Below the pieces are notes generated by a model, which was not told where the DNA came from, ran no database searches, and saw nothing but the letters and a program-made list of their open reading frames with translations. A DNA stretch of 64,000 nt from Neisseriaceae bacterium ESL0693 (GTDB lineage: Bacteria > Pseudomonadota > Gammaproteobacteria > Burkholderiales > Neisseriaceae), in assembly GCA_029433475.1 (NCBI GenBank), contig JAQTIE010000006.1, forward strand, positions 1 to 64,000, read 5' to 3'. Made by a program: the position numbers and the translations under genes. This document shows positions 48,144-53,343 of this stretch, one piece after another (positions within the stretch are counted from its first letter, which is position 1; each line of letters opens with the position of its first letter).

Positions 48144-48219
<76 letters not shown>

Positions 48220-52907: not shown

Positions 52908-53120
52908 TTAATAGTATTTTGGTGGCAATTGCTGGCTACGCAGGCGTTTTTGCAAGCGTTTTACTGCGGCAGCTTTTTTGCGTTTACGTTCAGTAGTTGG
53001 TTTTTCATAGGCTTCACGGCTGCGTAATTCAGTTAATAAGCCGGTTTTTTCTACAGCACGTTTAAAACGGCGCATGGCCACTTCAAATGGTTCATTTTCT
53101 TTGACACGAATAGAAGGCAT
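52908..53120 (-). CDS. rpsU: Ribosomal protein bS21
   Basis: 70 residues. [24 protein letters not shown] and the basic [16 protein letters not shown] are standard bS21. It sits on the 30S platform next to the anti-Shine-Dalgarno end of 16S rRNA and helps initiation. It is the first gene of the rpsU-yqeY-dnaG-rpoD operon. Its own RBS is a modest AGGA about six bases from the ATG, in contrast with the very strong one of the leader mini-ORF upstream. Confidence 0.98.
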
Positions 53121-53217
53121 GTTTTTCCTAAAATCAATAAAATAGCAATAAGTATGCAGTTTTTAAAAATAACAACTATTATGGTTTGATCCTAATAGTC
53201 TGGCGGTGGTTAAACAA

Positions 53218-53250
53218 TTAATTAAGGTGCCACCTCACCGGATACAACAT
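53218..53250 (-). CDS. Candidate 10-codon leader peptide in the rpsU 5' region
   Basis: ATG TTG TAT CCG GTG AGG and onward encodes MLYPVRWHLN then TAA. AGGAGGTGAT, fully complementary to the 16S rRNA 3' end, overlaps the start (only about two bases from GGAGG to ATG; a TTG one codon on would be better spaced). It ends 97 bases before rpsU. Translation is not proven; it may instead be a ribosome-binding decoy. Confidence 0.35.
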   Translation of the reverse strand: MLYPVRWHLN

Positions 53251-53313
53251 CACCTCCTAAGGTGCTAAATCAGTAGCTGTCAGATTTTAATCTGAGCAAA
53301 AAATGAGTGATGT

Positions 53314-53343
53314 ATTATTATACGTCAGTACATTGTTTGTCAA
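53314..53343 (-). promoter_or_regulatory. rpsU: Sigma-70 promoter for rpsU
   Basis: On the - strand a perfect TTGACA (53343-53338) is followed by 17 bases and TAATAA; an overlapping TATAAT would have a 15-base spacer. Transcription would start near 53307, giving a leader of about 185 bases that contains TCAGATT/AATCTGA (53280-53295) and the mini-ORF. Confidence 0.75.

Follow-up and report, generated by a model that had tools for sequence, protein, structure and literature searches.

Why should the leader of a ribosomal protein gene carry, well upstream of the start codon, a sequence fully complementary to the 3′ end of 16S rRNA? The rpsU locus of Neisseriaceae bacterium ESL0693 (contig JAQTIE010000006.1, positions 1–64,000, the whole 64,000-nt stretch being referred to as the window hereafter) raises this question. 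The gene, which encodes bS21 (70 aa), lies on the minus strand at 52908–53120 with its ATG at 53120, as do all features given below for the window. The ORFs downstream of it were read as dnaG and rpoD, and a tRNA gene (48147–48219, minus strand) is found downstream of rpoD. A sigma-70-like promoter occurs at 53317–53343 (TTGACA at 53338–53343, TATAAT at 53317–53322, spacer 15 nt), and an alternative −10, AATAAT, with a spacer of 18 nt also fits. The leader is about 185–190 nt long; the median 5′ leader given in the accessible text of a gonococcal transcriptome paper is 54 nt (PMC4176332). The passages covered give no mention of rpsU.

The first-pass annotation had listed in this leader an inverted repeat, an extended SD, a mini-ORF and a second hairpin followed by a T-rich run, and had read them as a possible sensor of bS21-depleted ribosomes or an attenuator. 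Every one of these pieces was found on the minus strand at its place. The observation is real and confirmed, and the interpretation is partly supported. The upstream hairpin, P0 (TCAGATT/AATCTGA, 53289–53295 with 53280–53286), has moderate support: of 73 relatives, no more than 20 have a hairpin at this position that outdoes 95 or more of 100 shuffles.

Complementarity of the leader to the 16S tail

The extended site, AGGAGGTGAT (53249–53258), is located 129–138 nt upstream of the rpsU start within a conserved core, TTAGGAGGTGATGTT (53246–53260), delimited by base counts over 73 family leaders. Because the 16S tail of the window genome reads GGATCACCTCCTTTCT, the 10-mer is fully complementary to it (10 contiguous pairs); the complementarity claimed at first is thus confirmed against the genome's own tail. 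The SD of rpsU itself had been called modest, and this is also the case: it reads TTTAGGAAAAAC and gives −4.2 kcal/mol, as compared with −17.6 kcal/mol for the upstream site. Four copies of the 10-mer exist in the whole genome, namely, the antisense of the 16S tail, the rpsU leader and two sites judged by eye to be coding.

For the family, 83 Neisseriaceae genomes were searched with the bS21 protein, and the upstream regions of all 80 rpsU matches were used. The pattern [A/G]GG[A/G]GGTG[A/G]T is present in 73 of the 80 leaders (52 with AGGAGGTGAT, 9 with GGGAGGTGAT, 6 with AGGAGGTGGT and 6 with AGGGGGTGAT), where it starts 97–160 nt upstream of the rpsU start; the site is strongly conserved while its flanks diverge. 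Since three positions of the pattern accepted no letter other than A or G, the seven misses (L030, L066–L068, L070, L079 and L080) were checked individually: their best copies carry 2 to 4 mismatches at unrelated places, and these rpsU leaders are mostly short. Over all 80 leaders, the pairing with the 16S tail has a median of −18.5 kcal/mol at the best upstream site versus −5.7 kcal/mol at the rpsU start.

The substitutions within the 10-mer were counted on a tree of limited support that was made from the leader and rpsU with the 10-mer removed. About 12 parsimony events were obtained, a number to be taken as an estimate because many branches are weak; all are changes from A to G, four at each of the three A's, while the other seven positions have 0 changes. 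Every such A faces a U in the 16S tail, so the change keeps the pairing as G-U. Among the mechanistic inferences, pairing between the 10-mer and the 16S tail has the best support. The purine-only changes could alternatively reflect a purine-specific protein.

The conservation extends beyond the 10-mer. Five adjoining positions are conserved although they do not pair: T at −2 (73/73), T at −1 (67/73), G at +11 (64/73), T at +12 (71/73) and T at +13 (70/73); the U's beside the 10-mer are almost as conserved as the pairing positions, though unable to pair with the tail. For this reason, pairing accounts for only part of the core. These U's would be accommodated if bS21 or another factor bound the purine core together with the pseudoknot that adjoins it (see below), the likeness to 16S being partly incidental. 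S15 and S4 do bind pseudoknot leaders. Nevertheless, an exact 10-nt complement of the 16S tail with wobble-only changes is hard to obtain by accident, and we consider a protein-binding leader of this kind quite improbable.

Promoters and start codons around the site

A better promoter-like site was found upstream of the element than between the element and rpsU in all 73 relatives; scores of at least 10 were reached upstream in 65 of the 73 and between the element and the gene in none. The element should therefore be contained in the mRNA, and a promoter downstream of it was rejected. This positional relationship bears on the possibility, named in the first-pass annotation as one that would speak against its reading, that transcription starts downstream of 53250; as far as promoter-like sequences can tell, the start probably lies upstream of the SD.

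The mini-ORF of the window (ATG TTG TAT ... TAA, 10 codons, 53218–53250) begins with an ATG that overlaps the SD. Such an ATG, 2 nt after AGGAGG and overlapping the SD duplex, occurs in 61 of the 73 leaders and is missing from that place in 12. A start codon at a spacing of 4–10 nt from the SD is found in only 19 leaders, and the ORFs at the site have anywhere between 2 and 115 codons. Neither a preferred length nor a preferred peptide emerges across genera, and 7 Snodgrassella leaders have two-codon ORFs. The conservation suggested for the mini-ORF was thus not borne out, as length, peptide and spacing all vary, and a short ORF that is both conserved and properly spaced from the SD was not recognized among the 73 leaders. 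Because the ATG overlaps the duplex, proper spacing is rare and lengths vary, we take the site to be start-less and consider the mini-ORF incidental. Control of rpsU through translation of the 10-codon ORF could draw on the frequent ATG; the 2-nt spacing, the 12 leaders without it and the scattered ORF lengths, including the two-codon ones, make such control extremely improbable.

Like a STAB-SD, the site combines a strong SD with the lack of a productive start, and this brings another explanation into consideration: a 30S subunit at the start-less SD might shield the rpsU-dnaG-rpoD mRNA from nucleases independently of translation and of any bS21 sensing. The position of the SD near the 5′ end and the accompanying hairpins fit such a stabiliser. 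We know of no pseudoknot in stabilisers of the STAB-SD or ompA/ermC type. According to the accessible text on these stabilisers (PMC7509114), they share with the Neisseriaceae element a strong SD in an untranslated leader with no productive start but, unlike it, are not tied to rpsU. The single copy and the confinement to the bS21 gene would be left unexplained by stabilisation, as would the recurrence of extended SDs at rpsU in Bacteroidota and in some Rhodocyclales-type loci, and we regard it as unlikely.

Predicted pseudoknot and other structures of the leader

The main feature that we add to the first-pass annotation is a predicted H-type pseudoknot just downstream of the site. In the window it spans 53205–53239, with S1 formed by GGTG (53236–53239) and CACC (53226–53229) and S2 by GGTGG (53230–53234) and CCACC (53205–53209). 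In 63 of the 73 leaders, no more than 5 out of 100 shuffles that kept dinucleotide composition were as good, a count that, like the other shuffle counts for the pseudoknot, is optimistic because the ranges of the finder were fixed after a first look. Among the 73 leaders scanned, the finder returned no pseudoknot in L075. When 1000 shuffles were used for 19 representatives, 14 had at most 40 as good, while 5 (L004, L034, L010, L064 and L063) had 104–276 and were not significant; for the window pseudoknot, the value was 6 of 1000.

The same topology recurs across genera and is drawn with unrelated letters in most of them: GGTG-GGTGG-CACC-CCACC in the window, GGCG-GTATC-CGCC-GATAC in Neisseria (with the variants ATGCC/GGCAT in L062 and GCAAC/GTTGC in L069), GGCT-TTATC-AGCC-GATAA in L024 (g3), ACGGT-GCGGT-ACCGT-ACCGC in Snodgrassella and AGCCGA-GCGGT-TCGGCT-ACCGC in L073. 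Distinct segments only were aligned, 49 in A1 and 10 from Snodgrassella in A2, six (L064, L073, L074, L075, L076 and L078) falling in neither. On the sequence-only alignment of 49 leaders, the site hairpin, S1 and S2 together gave 92.2% paired cells, as compared with 18.4–62.6% for slid versions. Double-change cells numbered 13 versus 3.1 in the shuffles (none of 500 reached this), and the covariation score was reached by 1 of 500 shuffles. Covariation was unclear in the 10 Snodgrassella leaders alone (double-change pairs, 2 versus 2.2 shuffled; further pair types, 4 versus 6.0). Two interleaved helices are thus kept across species, weakly within Snodgrassella and with 5 of the 19 representatives not significant.

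The site itself can be closed by a hairpin. In the window it is of the Snodgrassella type, CACCT(TAGG)AGGTG (53251–53264); this hairpin is kept in 10 of 10 alignment rows and shows no covariation because it is invariant in all of them. In Neisseria, the site is closed instead by a downstream GTGATG/CATCAC hairpin (95.9% of cells paired over 49 leaders), and the site hairpin in that alignment shows one-sided changes only. RNAalifold recovered the site hairpin and S1 unaided, with a small covariation term (−0.1). The closing arms, CATCAC in Neisseria and CACCT in Snodgrassella, look like stretches of the 16S tail, and the site was mostly paired in nested single-leader folds (mean unpaired 0.23 versus 0.48 overall). 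Plain nested folding of the window leader gives nothing unusual (z = −1.00); the structural case rests on comparison. Rfam gave no leader family at gathering score in the window; the leader of the window, like 10 related loci, drew chance-level matches only.

Farther downstream, the hairpin P3 (ACTATT/AATAGT, 53194–53199 with 53175–53180) precedes a T-rich stretch. The P3 region, which starts 55 nt past the SD and stops 25 nt short of rpsU, folds better than its shuffles, with a mean z of −2.90 and z below −2 in 53 of 70 leaders, segments under 20 nt being left out of the 73. This folding, together with terminator-like hairpins in 9 of the 73 leaders versus 1.1 expected from mononucleotide shuffles (e.g. 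L006, L011, L038, L073 and L074; a few Snodgrassella and other genera), would suit a transcription attenuator in which the leader adopts either the pseudoknot or a terminator farther down. However, no downstream hairpin with a U-run is listed for Neisseria proper, and the window P3 stem, made up almost entirely of A-T pairs, is passed over by the terminator scan. Relaxed settings flagged only S1 itself in L036, L044, L051 and L055. Attenuation by an intrinsic terminator finds no general support; a generic terminator was rejected as a family-wide feature, being confined to those 9 leaders of a few genera, and an attenuator is judged very unlikely. No sign was obtained that the leader sequesters the SD of rpsU (the mean z is 0.06, and only 2 of the 73 leaders fall below −2), and this candidate was also rejected.

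Proposed relation of the element to bS21, its known counterparts and its distribution

In the 30S subunit, bS21 sits beside the anti-SD tail of 16S rRNA. The reading that we find most likely, and to which we incline slightly, is that 30S subunits dock at the element, which offers them no start, and that the expression of rpsU is thereby tied to the bS21/anti-SD state of the ribosomes. The 10-nt site would pair with the 16S tail, with no conserved start codon at the correct spacing and with the predicted pseudoknot following within about 7–13 nt. In most species, a short local hairpin, whose second arm resembles part of the 16S tail, could close the site, and the 30S would need to open it. Subunits with an available anti-SD tail would dock at the 10-mer and, since bS21 is the neighbour of that tail, docking might make rpsU expression depend on the bS21 state of the ribosomes present. 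We infer all three of these elements, i.e., the 30S binding, the importance of the bS21 state and the effect on rpsU. Docking would take place about 100–150 nt upstream of the rpsU start, whose region shows neither special structure (mean z +0.58) nor special pairing with the leader, which we count against the docking reading. A more specific form is that the docking pseudoknot captures the whole 30S via the 16S tail and reads its bS21 composition without initiating, a built-in 16S-tail mimic closing the docking pseudoknot; this form is put forward tentatively, as we are rather inclined to doubt it. The conserved leader suggests that the cell gauges its need for bS21 through its own ribosomes.

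A published circuit provides the closest comparison. McNutt 2023 describes, in its accessible text, autoregulation of bS21 via an extended SD of rpsU in Flavobacterium johnsoniae and other Bacteroidota, where ribosomes lacking bS21 favour the extended SD (PMC9976891). The earlier proposal that rpsU reads the anti-SD state fits this circuit (PMC9976891). Common to both, as far as that text goes, are the gene rpsU, an unusually long pairing with the 16S tail and confinement to rpsU in the searches made; the Flavobacterium-type mark of −13 kcal/mol given there is exceeded both in the window (−17.6) and by the family median (−18.5). The layouts differ: in Flavobacterium, the extended SD initiates rpsU, and the circuit also rests on a Bacteroidia tail pocket, whereas in Neisseriaceae the site is distant, has no usable conserved start and is followed by a pseudoknot (PMC9976891, same text). 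None of the 80 family starts has at least 9 contiguous pairs, so that no extended SD initiates rpsU there. The principle of an extended SD at rpsU is already published for Bacteroidota, and the distant, start-less layout with a pseudoknot differs from it.

The identity of the gene, the Flavobacterium case (PMC9976891) and the extended SDs at rpsU in Betaproteobacteria are the reasons for taking bS21 as the sensed quantity. For E. coli, the accessible part of a review credits bS21 with providing SD pairing (PMC10931766). With a role of this type, docking of bS21-replete 30S would be a signal of sufficiency; we lean weakly to this signal, rather than to bS21-less subunits, for Neisseriaceae, where the SD at the start of rpsU is no more than modest. 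The same part of the review states that the regulation of rpsU in E. coli remains unknown and that the Flavobacterium circuit is a unique case of a ribosomal protein regulating as part of the ribosome (PMC10931766). If a second phylum has a long match to the 16S tail at its bS21 gene, in another layout, ribosome-composition sensing would become testable in ordinary SD users, including Neisseria. If the reading with a docking pseudoknot is true, this would be a bS21 regulator outside Bacteroidota with the ribosome itself as the ligand; being upstream of dnaG and rpoD, the element could also tie replication and transcription capacity to the ribosome state.

Pseudoknot leaders with 30S entrapment are known from E. 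coli rpsO/S15 and the alpha operon/S4, where the initiation site of the regulated gene takes part in the pseudoknot. As in these, the Neisseriaceae pseudoknot adjoins a ribosome binding site in a ribosomal protein mRNA; unlike these, it is well upstream of the rpsU start, and it has no Rfam match. A literature search, with supplementary tables and most subscription papers beyond its reach, returned no description of the Neisseriaceae rpsU leader.

The distribution was examined with a covariance model, R1, of the Neisseria type, from which S2 was omitted because such models cannot hold pseudoknots. R1 gave one match per genome in 52 of the 83 family genomes, all 52 just upstream of rpsU (positions compared by eye). 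It gave none in 243 non-family genomes of the order, a result that covers the Neisseria type only because R1 misses Snodgrassella (0 of 14 genomes). At 40 non-family loci of the order, no element was found at the corresponding place, and the leaders are short. In Chromobacteriaceae-type loci (L088–L090, L094, L131, L132, L136, L139 and L147), a look-alike, GAGGGGGTGATT, occurs about 160–190 nt upstream of rpsU; it was rejected as the same element because, by eye, it falls at the 3′ end of the preceding coding sequence, which we take to be thiG.

Extended SDs directly at rpsU were also found outside the family. We used 112 loci of L081–L200, leaving out L121–L126 (family), L157 (no start found) and loci with less than 120 nt upstream; some genomes are represented twice (e.g. 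L084/L127 and L092/L134). At least 9 pairs were found at 6 of the 112 starts, whereas two control windows had 1 such locus each among the 112, and 15 contiguous pairs occur directly at the rpsU start in L149 (Dechloromonas hortensis), L156 and L170. In the Dechloromonas-type genomes (L149, L156, L170 and L221–L224), AAGGGGGTGAT stands immediately before the rpsU ATG; this placement is the Flavobacterium layout in Betaproteobacteria. The exact pattern AAGGGGGTGATTTAT-ATGCC was present in 4 genomes of group f21 among the 399 searched, its coordinates coinciding with rpsU in G191 and G295. Finally, 19 of the 73 family leaders carry the DNA uptake sequence, GCCGTCTGAA, between the element and rpsU, with two copies in one leader; it is seen in Neisseria leaders such as L021, L022, L046 and L053.
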